Source: an uncultured Bacilli bacterium (GTDB taxonomy: Bacteria > Bacillota_I > Bacilli_A > RF39 > UBA660). Taken from it: a DNA stretch of 64,000 nt. Location of the stretch: positions 1 through 64,000 of the forward strand of contig CATNCE010000005.1 in NCBI GenBank assembly GCA_950097225.1. Reading direction: 5' to 3'. Numbering within the stretch: position 1 is the stretch's first letter; each line of letters starts with the position of its first letter. Below, piece by piece: positions 1 through 54,162 of the stretch. The notes under the pieces are model-generated. The model ran no database searches. It was not told the DNA's origin and was given only the letters and a program-made list of their open reading frames with translations. The position numbers were made by a program, and so were the translations under genes.

Positions 1-437
1 AACCATATAATACAGAAACAGGATATCTAGCTTCAACGACTGGTAATATAACTGGGATATATGATATGTCAGGTGGGTCTTGGGAATATGTAGCTGGATA
101 CCTAGATGGAACTGTAGGGAGTAGTGGACTAACATTAGATGAAATAAGAGAAACATATAGTAAATATATAGATGTATATGCAAGTAATTCAGCGCAAACA
201 ACATATAGTAAAAGAATCTTAGGAGATGCCACAGGAGAGCTAGGACCATTTTATAATGATGGAAATAATCGAAATAACTGGTATGATGATTATTCTAGCT
301 TTGCAGAATCTTCTTATCCTTGGTTTGGTCGAGGCGGATATTATAATCGTGGATTAAGCACAGGACTATTATATTTCACTAGAGATAGTGGTGGTGCCGG
401 AAGTAGTGATAGTGCACGCCTTGTACTTTTAGGATAG
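1..437 (+). CDS. C-terminal part of a variable surface protein (FGE/C-type-lectin-like domain)
   Basis: The reading frame is open from the left edge (first full codon at base 3), so the start lies outside the window. It encodes the last ~144 residues of a protein closely similar to the next gene: both carry the YDMSGG..EYVAGY core of formylglycine-enzyme/C-type-lectin-like domains, a GDATGE.GPFY block, then PWFGRGGYYNRG and a final SARLVL strand. Domains of this fold are the usual carriers of diversity-generating-retroelement variation. Here the variable stretch (about 316-423) keeps AT-type codons (TAT, GAT, AGT), unlike the next gene, so it may have drifted, come from a different template, or never have been mutagenised. 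The tandem arrangement suggests duplication. Cell-surface display is inferred from the paralogue. Function unknown beyond ligand binding. Confidence 0.75.
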   Translation, partial: PYNTETGYLASTTGNITGIYDMSGGSWEYVAGYLDGTVGSSGLTLDEIRETYSKYIDVYASNSAQTTYSKRILGDATGELGPFYNDGNNRNNWYDDYSSFAESSYPWFGRGGYYNRGLSTGLLYFTRDSGGAGSSDSARLVLLG

Positions 438-555: not shown

Positions 556-1947
556 ATGAAAAGTAGGAATATTATAATATTAGTAATAGGTTTGTTCTTT
601 GGAAGTATAATTGGGGCGGGAGCAGTTACTTTATGTAATGCTAAAGATATCTTATATAGTCCGACTGATGAAGCCTGGGAGATCGATACAGTAGATGATG
701 CATTAAATGATTTATATAATGCATGTGTATTAGGAGAGATGCCAGGAGATGGAACTGGAGATTCAGGAGGCTGGAGTGATGGCTCTGGAGCAAGTGCCCC
801 AGTAATAAATGGAGATTTAGTTCCCATAACAATAGCTAATGATGGAGTAGTAACATATGCTGACACAAGTGAAAAATGGTATGATTATAATAATAAAGAA
901 TGGGCTAATGCAGTAATCTTAGTTGATTATCCATCTAAGGCTTATGATGTAGGTGATACAATAATCGAAGATGATATTGAATCATACTTTGTATGGATTC
1001 CAAGATATAGATATAAGTTATTTCATGCTAATCAAGCTGATGGAACAACAGCTAAATTAAGTAGTAGTATAGCTCATACAATAGAAATTGAATTTGAAAG
1101 TAAGGAAACTCCAGTATCAAGTGGAAACCAAGACGGAGAATGGTTAACGCACCCAGCCTTCACAAATTTCGATGTAAATGGGTTATGGGTAGGAAAGTTT
1201 GAAACTGGATATAAAGGATCAACTAGCGTTTCTTCTGCTCAAGTAATTTCGTCAGATCCAACCAAAATTCAAGTAAAACCAAATGTAAATTCATGGCGAA
1301 ATAATCCAGTAGGTAATTTTTTCAAAGCCATACATAATTATAATCGTGGACTTGATTCGCATATGATGAAGAATGCTGAGTGGGGAGCAGTTGCATATTT
1401 GAGTCATTCTAAATATGGAATAAATGATGAAGTAAGAATAAATAACAATCAAAATTATTTAACTGGATATGCAGCAAATGAAGAAGATGCTTCTGGAAGT
1501 ACAACAGCAAATCAGCCATATAATACAGAAATAGGATATCTAGCATCAACTACTGGCAACATAACTGGAGTATATGATATGTCAGGTGGAGCATATGAAT
1601 ATGTAGCAGGATACCGAGATGGAACTATAGGAAGTAGTGGACTGACATTAGATGAAATAAGAAATACCTATAGTAAATATATAGATGTATATCCAAGTAA
1701 TTTGGCAGCAACAACATATAGTAAACGAATACTAGGAGATGCAACAGGAGAGATGGGACCATTTTATGGAACTTATTATAATAACTGGTATAATGATGTT
1801 TCGGCTTTTGCGGAGTCCTCTCGTCCTTGGATCCATCGCGGAGGGGGGTACAACGATGGATACAAAGCAGGCCAGTTCTACTTCAGTAGCTACAGCGGGA
1901 TTGGCTACGTTCAATTCAGCGCTCGCCTCGTACTAGCACCCAAATAA
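556..1947 (+). CDS. Surface-anchored variable protein with C-terminal FGE/C-type-lectin-like domain (DGR-target type)
   Basis: 463 residues. Residues 1-25 form one hydrophobic signal-anchor. Residues ~85-120 (INGDLVPI...WANAVILVD) start a domain shared with the gene at 50186. The YFVWIPRYRYKLF, EWLTHPAF and VGKFETGYKG blocks and the late YDMSGGAYEYVAGY block are typical of formylglycine-generating-enzyme/C-type-lectin-like folds. The last ~45 codons (from about 1800) change composition sharply: by hand count about 60% G+C in 1801-1860 against about 32% in 1681-1740. They contain many NNC codons around the frame RGGGYNDG..AGQF...SARLVL. This is what adenine-directed mutagenesis of AAC codons gives, so I read it as a diversity-generating retroelement target. 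Likely role: variable ligand binding at the cell surface. An SD (GAAGGGA) precedes the ATG. No LPXTG or lipobox is visible. Confidence 0.8.
   Translation: MKSRNIIILVIGLFFGSIIGAGAVTLCNAKDILYSPTDEAWEIDTVDDALNDLYNACVLGEMPGDGTGDSGGWSDGSGASAPVINGDLVPITIANDGVVTYADTSEKWYDYNNKEWANAVILVDYPSKAYDVGDTIIEDDIESYFVWIPRYRYKLFHANQADGTTAKLSSSIAHTIEIEFESKETPVSSGNQDGEWLTHPAFTNFDVNGLWVGKFETGYKGSTSVSSAQVISSDPTKIQVKPNVNSWRNNPVGNFFKAIHNYNRGLDSHMMKNAEWGAVAYLSHSKYGINDEVRINNNQNYLTGYAANEEDASGSTTANQPYNTEIGYLASTTGNITGVYDMSGGAYEYVAGYRDGTIGSSGLTLDEIRNTYSKYIDVYPSNLAATTYSKRILGDATGEMGPFYGTYYNNWYNDVSAFAESSRPWIHRGGGYNDGYKAGQFYFSSYSGIGYVQFSARLVLAPK
1798..1938 (+). other. Candidate DGR variable region in gene 556-1947
   Basis: This block covers the C-terminal variable part and the invariant SARLVL end. 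It is G+C-rich in an AT-rich gene. Its codons are enriched in NNC: ATC, CGC, TAC, AAC, TAC, GGC, TTC, TAC, TTC, AGC, TAC, AGC, GGC, TAC, TTC, AGC. In known retroelements an A-rich template carrying AAC codons is copied with random changes at A, which leaves the third-base C fixed. The 3' end (GCGCTCGCCTCG) is GC-rich like an initiation-of-mutagenic-homing element. The boundaries are approximate and the template repeat was not found. Confidence 0.6.
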
Positions 1948-28973: not shown

Positions 28974-30200
28974 ATGAAAAGAAGAAGTGTGTTATTACTA
29001 GGTATGTTATTTCTTGTGGTAGGTTTTGCAGCAGTAACATCTACGTTAGTAATAAATGGTAATGCTAGAATAGCTAGTAATGATGATGATTTTGATGTGT
29101 ATTTTTCTGCATCATTCGAAAATGGAAAAAAGAAAAATAGTCTAATCAAGGATGATACCCATATCGTGTTTGATTATGATATCAGTATGATTGGTGAAAC
29201 CTATACATTAGAATATGATGTAACAAATGGAAGTCGTGAGTATGATGCAAGTGTAAGTATAAATTGTACTAATAGTACAGAGTACTTGGGTATAACTAAT
29301 GAGTTTGATGAAGAAACTAATCTTTTGGCAACTGAAACTAGAAAAGGAACATTAAAAATCGAGTTAGTTAAGGCTTATGTAGGAGAGACAACTGATGTAG
29401 AGGTATCTTGTGAGATAGTTGGAAGTGCTGTTTCAAGAGAAGAAGTGTCTGATGGAACACCAGCTGATAAAGTAAAAAGTGCATGGGAGATAACTGAGGA
29501 TAATGATAATAATGGTGAAGTATCTGTAGGGGATTTAATCACCTTAGGTAGTGAATCGTTCTATGTCTATAACATTGAAGGAGATAATATATCAGCCATA
29601 GCTAGATATAACTTGCATGTTGGAGGAATAGTAGTAGATGGCTCAGTAAATATTACTCCAATAGAAAATCCAACTGGACTACAATATCCAAGTGCTAATG
29701 GAATGATATCTGAAGATAATGGATTAACTCCAAGTGGTTTTTCATTGGCAGGAGTAGTACCATTCACAACAGAAGAAAAATATAATCAAGCTAACGAAGG
29801 ATTATCAGAAGAAAACAAATTAAAACCAAATGATTATAGTATAAGTGTAGTTAAAGAATATGTTGATGAATACGCAATTAAATTAGCTGAGTTAGGTGGA
29901 GAAATAAAAACAACACGATTAATAACAAAAGAGGAGTTAGAAAGTGTTGGATGTGATCCGAATAAATGGTCATGTAAAGCCGGATATGATTATAGTGAAA
30001 GTGAAGAAGATCCAACATTCGCAGGAGCACCAGAATACATGTATACAACATCGTACTGGACTTCTTCGCCTGATGAAAAGCATGACGAGTACGTTTTTCA
30101 TGTCGACTACTTCGGCCACTTCGGCGGCAGCCACAACGTTTACGGCGACGGCGCTCTTGGTGTGCGCCCTGTTATCGAAATCTCTAAAACGTTATTTTAA
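28974..30200 (+). CDS. Surface protein with N-terminal TasA-like region and C-terminal variable lectin-like domain (DGR-target type)
   Basis: 408 residues. Residues 1-25 (LLLGMLFLVVGFAAVTSTLVINGNARI) are a signal peptide/anchor. Residues ~30-160 look like an all-beta TasA/camelysin-like domain, similar in style to the gene at 50186. Residues ~165-405 form a domain that ends YWTSSP...GVRPVIEI, a family widespread in uncultured gut Firmicutes. Between these invariant ends the DNA turns G+C-rich (about 62% in 30121-30180 by hand count) with a run of NNC codons. This indicates adenine-directed diversification by a retroelement. It has its own promoter and terminator. The ligand is unknown. Confidence 0.8.
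   Translation: MKRRSVLLLGMLFLVVGFAAVTSTLVINGNARIASNDDDFDVYFSASFENGKKKNSLIKDDTHIVFDYDISMIGETYTLEYDVTNGSREYDASVSINCTNSTEYLGITNEFDEETNLLATETRKGTLKIELVKAYVGETTDVEVSCEIVGSAVSREEVSDGTPADKVKSAWEITEDNDNNGEVSVGDLITLGSESFYVYNIEGDNISAIARYNLHVGGIVVDGSVNITPIENPTGLQYPSANGMISEDNGLTPSGFSLAGVVPFTTEEKYNQANEGLSEENKLKPNDYSISVVKEYVDEYAIKLAELGGEIKTTRLITKEELESVGCDPNKWSCKAGYDYSESEEDPTFAGAPEYMYTTSYWTSSPDEKHDEYVFHVDYFGHFGGSHNVYGDGALGVRPVIEISKTLF
30064..30170 (+). other. Candidate DGR variable region in gene 28974-30200
   Basis: Codons include TAC, GTC, GAC, TAC, TTC, GGC, CAC, TTC, GGC, GGC, AGC, CAC, AAC, TAC, GGC, GAC, GGC. Almost all end in C in a genome that prefers A/T there, and nearly all are one or two changes at A away from AAC. 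Invariant blocks flank it: YWTSSP before and ALGVRPVI after. The GC-rich end fits a mutagenic-homing initiation site. The template was not found in this window. Confidence 0.65.
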
Positions 30201-50100: not shown

Positions 50101-50185
50101 CATTTTTTGATAAAATACTACACCATAAACGTTGTAAGCAAAATGGACTTTGTGATATAATACTAACAGAATAGGAATGTTGCTT

Positions 50186-51871
50186 ATGAAAAAGAAAAGT
50201 ATCATATATTTCTTTGTTATCGCGCTTGTAATAGGTTTTGCAAGTGTAACAACTAACTTAATCATAAATAATACTTTAAACATTGGTTTTAATAATGCAT
50301 TCCTAGATAATGTTAAATTTATAAATACTAAAACTGATGGTAAGGCATCAATTAGTTTAGATGGAAAAACAATCAGTTATGAAGCAAAAGAGTTAACTAG
50401 CATAAATGAAGAGGCTAATTTAACATTCTGGATAAAGAATGAAAATACTCAGTATGATGTTGAAGCCATTATATCTTGTAGTATTAATAATGCATCAGAG
50501 AATATCAAAGACTTAGTAAGTATATCAGTTGAGCCTAAAAACTTCACTCTAGCAAGTAATGAAGTAAAAAGTGGAGAAGTCAGAATAGAAATGACTAGTG
50601 TTGTTACTGAAAGTATAGATGGTAACTTCACATGTGAGTTAATAGCAACACCAGTAGAAAGAGAAGAACCAGGTGTAATAACTAATACATGTATAGCAGA
50701 CTTGAACGAAAATAATCCGGTAATCAATGGTGAGTTAATACCTATTGAATTAGACAATAATGGTATTGTTACATACTCCGATAAAGGAGAATCTTGGTAC
50801 AACTATTGTGAGCAGAAATGGGCTAATGCAGTAATACTAGTAGATAATCCGTCTAAAACTTATAAGGTAGGAGATACAATTCAGGAAAATGATATAGAAT
50901 CATACTTCGTATGGATACCAAGATATAGATATAAGTTATTTCATGCCAATCAAGCGGATGGAACGTCAGCTAAATTAAATAGTAGTATAGCTCATACGAT
51001 AGAAATTGAATTTGAGAGTAAAGAAAGTCCAGTATCAACAGGAACGAAAGATGGAGAATGGTTAACCCATCCCGCTTTCACAAATTTTGATGTAAATGGC
51101 ATATGGGTAGGAAAGTTCGAAACAGGGTATAAAGGGGCAACAAGTATAAATTCTGCTCAAGTAAGTTCATCAGATTCAAGCAAAATTCAAGTGAAGCCCA
51201 ATGTATACTCATGGCGTTTAAATTCAGTAGGAAGCTTTTTCAAAGCCATGTATAATTACAATCGTGAGTTGGATTCGCACATGATGAAGAATACTGAATG
51301 GGGAGCAGTAGCATACCTATCACATTCAAGATATGGAATAAATGATGAAGTAAGAATAAATAATAATTCAAATTATCTAACAGGCTATGCAGCAACCACT
51401 AAAGATGCTCCTGGAAGTACAACAGAGAATAGGCCATATAATACATCTACTGGATATTTAGCGTCAACTACTGGTAATATAACTGGAATTTATGACATGT
51501 CTGGCGGAGCTAATGAGTATGTAGCAGGATATATAGATGGAAATGGACATACTGGAGGACTAACGTCAGAGGAAATAAAAAATGCATACAATGAATATAT
51601 AGACATATATCCAAGTAATAGTGACAAAACAACATATAGTAATAGAATCTTAGGAGATGCAACAGGCGAAATTGGACCATTTTATGGAAGCTCACCATAT
51701 TATAATAACTGGTATCAAGATAACTCGATCTTCTTATTCTCTACCTATCCATGGTTTTCTAGAGGAAGTGGATATGGAGGAAAAAACTATGCAGGGCAAT
51801 TTTGTTTCACTTCCTACGGTGGTGGAATTAATAATGGTTACAGCGCGCGTCTCGTCCTATCTCCAAAATAA
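50186..51871 (+). CDS. Surface protein with TasA-like N-terminus and C-terminal FGE/C-type-lectin-like domain
   Basis: 561 residues from the ATG after TAGGAATG. Signal peptide/anchor at residues ~4-28 (IIYFFVIALVIGFASVTTNLI), an all-beta region of ~170 residues similar in style to the 28974 gene, then from ~190 the same domain as the 556 gene (ING.L.PI..., ESYFVWIPRYRYKLFHANQA, DGEWLTHPAFTNFDVNG.WVGKFETGYKG). It ends PWFSRGSGYGGKNYAGQF...SARLVLSPK, in the position of the variable region, with intermediate base composition. So one C-terminal module is joined to different N-termini in this genome. Confidence 0.8.
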   Translation: MKKKSIIYFFVIALVIGFASVTTNLIINNTLNIGFNNAFLDNVKFINTKTDGKASISLDGKTISYEAKELTSINEEANLTFWIKNENTQYDVEAIISCSINNASENIKDLVSISVEPKNFTLASNEVKSGEVRIEMTSVVTESIDGNFTCELIATPVEREEPGVITNTCIADLNENNPVINGELIPIELDNNGIVTYSDKGESWYNYCEQKWANAVILVDNPSKTYKVGDTIQENDIESYFVWIPRYRYKLFHANQADGTSAKLNSSIAHTIEIEFESKESPVSTGTKDGEWLTHPAFTNFDVNGIWVGKFETGYKGATSINSAQVSSSDSSKIQVKPNVYSWRLNSVGSFFKAMYNYNRELDSHMMKNTEWGAVAYLSHSRYGINDEVRINNNSNYLTGYAATTKDAPGSTTENRPYNTSTGYLASTTGNITGIYDMSGGANEYVAGYIDGNGHTGGLTSEEIKNAYNEYIDIYPSNSDKTTYSNRILGDATGEIGPFYGSSPYYNNWYQDNSIFLFSTYPWFSRGSGYGGKNYAGQFCFTSYGGGINNGYSARLVLSPK

Positions 51872-52528: not shown

Positions 52529-52569
52529 GATATCATAGTGAGATGCTAGAAAGTAGGTGTCAGCTTATT

Positions 52570-54162
52570 ATGGGGTTAGCAAGTGAGAATAGAGTACATA
52601 AGCAAGATAATTTCTTCCTTTTTTTTCCTATGTATGTATGTTTAGGTGTATACTATGTCATGTATAGTGTTGTTTGGCCAATTATTTGGTTATGGAATAA
52701 ATCATCAGATACCTTATATACATCAATAAATAAAGCCACTGATCGTACTGAACTTAGAGGTGCTTATATGACTTCAACAGAAAGTGAAGTCACTGGTAAA
52801 ACCGAAGAGGAAGTTGAAAAAAATCTAATTGATCGTGGCCCAATTAAAAAAGAAGTAAGAATAAGTGAATCCCTAATTAAGGCTCGTGAAAACTTAATCA
52901 ATACAATAGATGCTGGAGAAGAACAGCGTAGTGATCAGCCAAGAACTTATCGTTATACCGCCTTAGGTCCTGATGGCAAACAAGTTACTAATACATTCTA
53001 TGCTTATTCTAAAGTTGAAGTATATACATTCTTAGAAAATGAAGGATACAAAGTATTTAAGATTGAGACGTCATCTTTAATTGAAAAATTATATGGAACA
53101 TCTATCTTTGGTGCTCATAAAATCAAAATTAAGGATATCGTATTTTGGCTTCAACAACTATCAACTTACTTAAAAGCCGGGATTCCATTAACTGATTCCA
53201 TGCGCATCTTAAGTAAGCAGATGGGAAAGAAAAATCATAATATTAAAAAATCATTTGATTCAATTGTTTATAATTTAACATTAGGAGAGAGTTTCTCGAC
53301 TAGCTTAGAAAAACAAGGGGATGTATTCCCAACCCTGTTAATCAACATGATTAAGTCAGCTGAGGCAACAGGAGATCTTGAAGGAACCCTTGACGAAATG
53401 GCCGATTACTATAAAGCAACAGAGACAACTAGAAAAGAAATGATAAGCGCTCTAACTTATCCATGTTTAGTAATTGTCTTCTCAATTGCCGTTGTCATTT
53501 TCATATTGCTATACTTAATTCCTCAGTTCGTTGACATTTATAATACGGCTGGTGTAAAACTAAATCCAATAACCGTCTTCATTATAAACGCCAGTGAATT
53601 CTTACAGGCCAATATGTTATATGTTGCTATTGTTGTAATAATTTTTATTGCCGTAATTGTCGTACTATATAAAAATGTCAAAGCTTTCCGCTATTTTATG
53701 CAAACGATGTCGATGAAATTGCCAATCTTTGGTAAAATAATAATTTATAAAGAGATGATGATATTTACTAAGACGTTTGCGAGTCTATTGAAAAACAATG
53801 TCTTCATAACCGAATCGATGGATATTTTAGGAAAAATAACATCTAATGAAATATATCGCGAAATAATGATAAGAACAGTTAATTACATTGGGCGTGGAGA
53901 AAAAATTTCTGCGGCCTTCCAAGGACACTGGGCTATCCCAGAGGTTGCTTACTACATGATGGTAACAGGAGAATCAACTGGCGAACTCGCTTCAATGATG
54001 AGTAAGGTATCTGATTATTACGCAGAACAACATAAGATGATAGTTGACTCATTAAAGACCTTAATTGAGCCACTGCTAATCGTTATATTAGCTGTAATCG
54101 TTGGTGGAATAATGATTGCCGTAATTGTACCAATGTTCAGTTTATACGAAGAACTCTTATAA
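52570..54162 (+). CDS. Type II secretion/type IV pilus assembly platform protein (PilC/GspF-like)
   Basis: 530 residues from the ATG eleven bases after AAGTAGGTG. It has an unusual N-terminal extension: one membrane segment (~15-35) then a charged cytoplasmic region of ~100 residues. The PilC N-terminal module (YRYTALGPDGKQVTNTFYAYSKVEV) and two T2SSF domains follow, each with motifs such as FWLQQLSTYLKAGIPLTDSM, ALTYPCLVIVFSIAVV and FTKTFASLLKNNVFITESM. It forms the inner-membrane platform. No pilin or ATPase gene is beside it; the next gene is the prepilin peptidase. Confidence 0.88.
   Translation: MGLASENRVHKQDNFFLFFPMYVCLGVYYVMYSVVWPIIWLWNKSSDTLYTSINKATDRTELRGAYMTSTESEVTGKTEEEVEKNLIDRGPIKKEVRISESLIKARENLINTIDAGEEQRSDQPRTYRYTALGPDGKQVTNTFYAYSKVEVYTFLENEGYKVFKIETSSLIEKLYGTSIFGAHKIKIKDIVFWLQQLSTYLKAGIPLTDSMRILSKQMGKKNHNIKKSFDSIVYNLTLGESFSTSLEKQGDVFPTLLINMIKSAEATGDLEGTLDEMADYYKATETTRKEMISALTYPCLVIVFSIAVVIFILLYLIPQFVDIYNTAGVKLNPITVFIINASEFLQANMLYVAIVVIIFIAVIVVLYKNVKAFRYFMQTMSMKLPIFGKIIIYKEMMIFTKTFASLLKNNVFITESMDILGKITSNEIYREIMIRTVNYIGRGEKISAAFQGHWAIPEVAYYMMVTGESTGELASMMSKVSDYYAEQHKMIVDSLKTLIEPLLIVILAVIVGGIMIAVIVPMFSLYEELL

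Follow-up and report, generated by a model that had tools for sequence, protein, structure and literature searches.

We found that the G+C-rich 3′ end of gene 556-1947 is, with a probability of roughly 0.93, the variable region (VR) of a diversity-generating retroelement (DGR), whose template (TR), reverse transcriptase (RT) and Avd on contig C49 of the same genome appear to have rewritten in trans about 47 scattered members of one gene family. The gene lies in a 64,000-nt window, the whole stretch of DNA analysed here, at the start of contig C5 in a genome of 1.61 Mb (58 contigs, completeness 92%, contamination 0.28%). Most described DGRs have one or few targets adjoining the RT. Judged from sequence, every tested part of the present system is canonical; its scale and layout set it apart, with one template for dozens of dispersed homologues of graded age. 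The original prediction of a DGR footprint at 1798-1938 is supported: the observation was confirmed, an RT-linked TR, avd and a DGR-type RT are all present on C49, and the scale is larger than had been claimed.

The 3′ tract of gene 556-1947

The composition of the gene changes abruptly near its 3′ end, as had been noticed from its letters. The G+C content rises from 34% (556-1797) to 55-56% (1798-1938), and the NNC codons from 28 of 414 to 20 of 50. The RGG...AGQF...SARLVL residues, described beforehand as invariant, are indeed unchanged in most paralogs. Across the whole 64 kb, 129-nt stretches with a G+C content of at least 55% start only at 1798-1815 and at 30049. Both places proved to be DGR variable regions and, therefore, the compositional signal is real and specific. 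The VR starts sharply at 1801 (TCG, TR base 188 of C49), and its final TR-matching block ends at 1929. The features are collected in Table 1.

Table 1. Coordinates of the retroelement parts and their targets (positions without a contig name are those of the window; VP, variable protein)
Feature	Position	Strand	Description
VP gene	556..1947	+	463-aa intact ORF; predicted N-terminal membrane anchor, stalk, FGE-type C-type-lectin-like (CLec) domain, C-terminal VR
VR core	1801..1929	+	129 nt, gap-free alignment to TR C49:188-316
Putative IMH (homing initiation) core, AGCGCTCGCCTC	1918..1929	+	12 nt; identical in TR and most fresh VRs
Upstream VP gene, 3′ part	1..437	+	cut by contig start; tandem partner of 556-1947
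Third same-family VP gene	50177..51871	+	564 aa, longer N-terminal domain
Second-DGR VP gene	28974..30200	+	paralogue of C16 ORF with DUF6273-like C-terminus
Second-DGR VR	30099..30170	+	one extra codon; against TR2 (C16), 14/19 mismatches at template A (p = 2e-4)
TR	C49:188-328		39 A in 141; AAY codons at variable sites
avd homologue	C49:562-~900		in-frame TAA at codon 61
DGR-type RT	C49:903-1904		RVT_1 E = 1e-12; PHROG 1423 E = 1.6e-103
VP copies with stop at Trp	C3:61250, C3:95578, C1:70036, C24:20612, C42:2134, C1:111200

A DGR core on contig C49

The original prediction noted that the window has no RT and placed template and enzyme in trans. RVT_1 matches were found on only two contigs of the genome, C49 and C16, and the TR, avd and RT sit together on C49, a different contig from the window's. 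Along C49 (3.3 kb), the final 23 bases of a VR are followed by the TR, the avd homologue and the RT; the TR lies upstream of the RT, at a distance of about 575 nt from its start, and a 9-bp stem lies between the end of the cis VR and the TR. Translation of the TR gives SNFVESSNPWFNRGGNYNNGSNAGQFNFNRNTGDANSNNSARLILLG; its asparagine codons, AAC as expected or AAT, mark the positions at which the VRs vary. The RT carries IGNFTSQ at the position of QGxxxSP, a motif of other RTs. The avd homologue was matched, in each case below cut-off, by NF033474 (E = 8e-6) and by bAvd (E = 2e-4). A frameshift in avd was considered and rejected, as its frame is instead interrupted by the in-frame TAA, which could be a true stop, an allele of this strain or a fault of the assembly. 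It is unlikely that C49 comes from another organism, given that four VRs on four contigs match its TR at 93 of 93 non-A sites.

A further TR of the C49 kind was not found elsewhere in the assembly. Separately, the avd-RT junction occurs once more at the start of contig C33 (L169:1-180), where the contig boundary truncates it; this fragment is possibly the remnant of another DGR core.

Adenine-specific variation across a dispersed family

The protein of gene 556-1947 has 63 matches in the genome, and the family including fragments occupies about 4.5% of the genome. Its copy number is a lower bound, because contigs of the assembly end at its members. In 47 copies the 3′ end aligns to the single C49 TR; a few of these contain indels, so that their difference counts are overestimates. 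Ranked by their non-A differences, the 47 VRs form a continuum of about 18 fresh copies, defined by seven or fewer such differences, and about 29 aged ones. The four least-changed VRs have no non-A differences in 93 sites and 18-20 differences at A sites. When the 18 fresh VRs are pooled, 325 of 648 A sites (50%) differ from the TR, compared to 46 of 1674 other sites (2.7%; Fisher p about 3e-158). The A-rich near-copy that the original prediction placed beside an RT exists, adjoining avd and the RT, and the mismatches of the freshest sister VRs are confined to its adenines. That confinement did not hold for the window VR: of the 37 differences in its core, 18 are at A sites and 19 at other sites, only a moderate bias towards A (p = 0.006).

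We compared the VRs with the sequence upstream of them. Seven VRs with 0-1 non-A differences are 98.8% identical to each other at non-A sites and 47% identical at A sites, while the 600 nt upstream of the same seven have a mean identity of 86% (copies with enough upstream sequence). Non-A sites are thus far better conserved than the upstream sequence, which excludes recent duplication and fits templated rewriting in trans. A mixture of strains was also rejected as the source of the copies: among the freshest ones, gene-body identity is only 83-91%, the flanks differ, and contamination is 0.28%.

The fresh VRs contain 0 stop codons, and the AAY codons of the TR become mostly Y, G, S, N and D in them. 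At TR codon 26 (counted from 0), an AAC, 14 of the 18 fresh copies encode Tyr, which suggests selection on the drawn variants.

Conversion limits and proposed mechanism

Directly after AGCGCTCGCCTC there is a TR/VR mismatch, with A in the TR and G in nearly all VRs, and past position 129 the VR tails differ between copies, retaining their own sequence. The non-A differences of the fresh VRs are concentrated within the first 24 bases (6.4%, compared to 0.8-2.8% elsewhere; permutation p = 0.03), with two recurrent 5′ alleles carrying much of this signal. The 5′ excess and the unconverted tails fit 3′-primed copying, which would start at the 3′ GC-rich element and end at variable 5′ points. The conversion limit is also what points to an IMH role for the 12-nt element. 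At silent sites, the putative IMH of the aged VRs shows no excess retention over other silent sites (23/36 versus 112/170; 21/56 versus 101/261), and no conserved hairpin was seen by eye downstream of the fresh VRs.

In the mechanism that we propose, the C49 TR would be transcribed, and the adjacent RT and Avd would copy the TR RNA into cDNA, misincorporating at template adenines. The cDNA would be primed at or near the GC-rich 12-nt element and would replace the 3′ end of any genomic gene copy with that element and flanking homology. One TR would have served about 47 dispersed, putatively membrane-anchored proteins with a predicted CLec fold, about 18 of them apparently rewritten recently. 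The remaining copies, including gene 556-1947, would be older products of this TR lineage that drifted afterwards, the majority of them towards the AT-rich base composition of the genome. The cDNA mechanism is what we infer from these patterns, and the C49 DGR may still be active.

Aged targets and alternative explanations

In the aged VRs the non-A differences reach 47 and lead to A or T in about 81% of cases; along the gradient the G+C content of the VRs declines from 0.60 to 0.39, approaching that of the genome. We read the window VR as an aged target in the middle of this gradient, written from the same TR lineage and not recently rewritten. Because the 12-nt element is retained, the gene may still be rewritable.

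The main alternative, though an unlikely one, is that the window VR was written from another TR, either an older version or a second one missing from the assembly. Only 11 of its 19 non-A changes are AT-directed, a lower share than the 81% in the other aged VRs (p = 0.015), and a GAC..TCC 5′ haplotype common to several fresh VRs is absent from the C49 TR, but variable conversion end points would explain this haplotype as well. The truncated avd-RT fragment, whose upstream part is unassembled, also counts in favour of such a TR; against this, the assembly holds no other TR-like copy, and few derived non-A alleles are common to the window VR and other VRs. Moreover, the C49 TR is the closest one to the window VR (19 of 93 non-A sites differ), while the TRs of 17 relatives all fit it worse (28-46 differences).

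It is also improbable, in our estimate, that this strain has lost or is losing its DGR function and that every VR is a fossil of past activity. The in-frame TAA in avd would agree with this, as would the 29 of 47 VRs that are aged and the stops at Trp codons in several copies. However, the four VRs without non-A change in 93 sites argue for recent rewriting, the avd stop is possibly an assembly error or strain allele, and the intact avd of a second DGR could help. Finally, the usual divergence of paralogues, positive selection or gene conversion might be expected to produce variable positions in a large family whose gene bodies diverge by 10-25%, but the A-site-specific differences to an RT-linked template and the far better conservation of non-A sites than of the adjoining gene body leave such an origin without a DGR next to no probability.

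Two other family members in the window carry VRs that aged further, with 17 A-site and 28 non-A differences (G+C 0.43) in the gene cut by the contig start and, in the strongly aged VR of gene 50177..51871, 23 A-site and 40 non-A differences. A long family member repeatedly lies in tandem with a short one, on C5, C8, C32 and C1. A prophage is not indicated, because the targets have core genes around them; VP gene 50177, for instance, adjoins ribosomal genes and rpoA. Six VP copies (Table 1) have an in-frame stop, TAG or TGA, in place of the TGG of a conserved Trp, three of them at one shared site.

Fold of the variable protein

The original prediction had assigned the protein an FGE/C-type-lectin-like fold, and our comparisons by profile and by structure agree with it. 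Pfam gave a weak FGE-sulfatase match (PF03781), below cut-off. A profile of 27 homologues matched exactly one sequence in the PDB, TaqVP (5VF4; E = 8e-7), the DGR variable protein of Thermus aquaticus (PMC6328139). In a Foldseek search with a model of the VP, TaqVP was again the top match (E = 2e-7), followed by FGE and Mtd. The model is middling (pLDDT 76) and its TM-scores are low (0.33-0.42); the E-values therefore weigh more than the superposition. On these profile and fold matches to TaqVP, the VP is a predicted CLec-fold variable protein. A hydrophobic helix at its N-terminus suggests that it is anchored in the membrane and displayed at the surface, and the VPs would be expected to bind ligands. 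By eye, the product of 52543-54162, near a VP gene in the window, resembles a type IV pilus/type II secretion inner-membrane protein, and VP homologues from Clostridia relatives have prepilin-like N-termini.

A second DGR in the same genome

The second DGR, on contig C16, has an RT, an intact Avd and a TR, and it serves five further VRs, one of them in the window. Within the 69-nt core of these VRs, template A accounts for 14-16 of the 19 differences in three copies (p 4e-6 to 2e-4), and the A-site bias is less clear in the other two. Its TR2 is the translated 3′ end of ORF C16:19636-20853 (- strand), NSIGNFDNNNVNNDNDLGVRP, so that TR and coding sequence overlap.

Relatives and known systems

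Relatives of the C49 RT were found in MAGs named Bacilli, Erysipelotrichaceae, Tenericutes or Clostridia, in many of them with a TR upstream of the RT. The design recurs in a same-genus species, whose genome has a different TR, one cis VR in which all 8 differences are at A, a single remote VR that is nearly fresh, and about 15 others that are aged. Within the family of this organism, VP relatives occur in 50 of 117 genomes and the RT in 24 under strict cut-offs. In a relative with many candidate VP copies (G012), a motif scan did not find a TR near its RT and intact avd.

Dispersed targets have been described before. The TvpA DGR of Treponema denticola, whose target protein also has a CLec fold, likewise uses a single TR and RT for up to seven dispersed targets, some with excess mutations (PMC4891356). 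In contrast, the single TR described here has about 18 fresh and 29 aged targets, with tandem target pairs, in a 1.6-Mb Bacilli-related gut genome. In Trichodesmium erythraeum IMS101, two DGRs share 18 loci (PMC8867640, PMC7517822) with remote targets and graded TR/VR homology, as here, but in a cyanobacterium and with other N-terminal domains on the targets. Thiohalocapsa PB-PSB1 (nine DGR loci, 15 targets and 21 VRs; PMC10907252) also has trans targets, C-terminal CLec domains and intragenomic duplication, but its DGRs are tied to conflict systems and not to one surface family. TaqVP, the closest solved structure, shares the FGE-type CLec fold and the C-terminal VR; unlike the present family, it is prophage-encoded, in a cassette resembling that of the Bordetella phage (PMC6328139). 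One survey has larger TR-VR counts, such as 91 pairs from six TRs in a Pseudomonas, where 21 merged VRs are all within one ORF, and the method of a large metagenome survey was, by its own account, unable to detect remote targets (PMC8144416). In openly searchable reports, dispersed target sets are smaller (7 in T. denticola, 18 in Trichodesmium), and a larger case may exist.

The gradient from fresh to aged copies provides a handle on target choice, on where conversion starts and stops, and on how frequently each copy is rewritten. The family also draws attention to an uncultured gut lineage that may have a highly variable surface. A further, tentative possibility, which we hold to be rather less than an even chance, is that one template RNA continuously rewrites dozens of surface receptors, while copies leave and possibly re-enter the pool. 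If true, a single cell would hold a genome-scale, self-renewing receptor repertoire.
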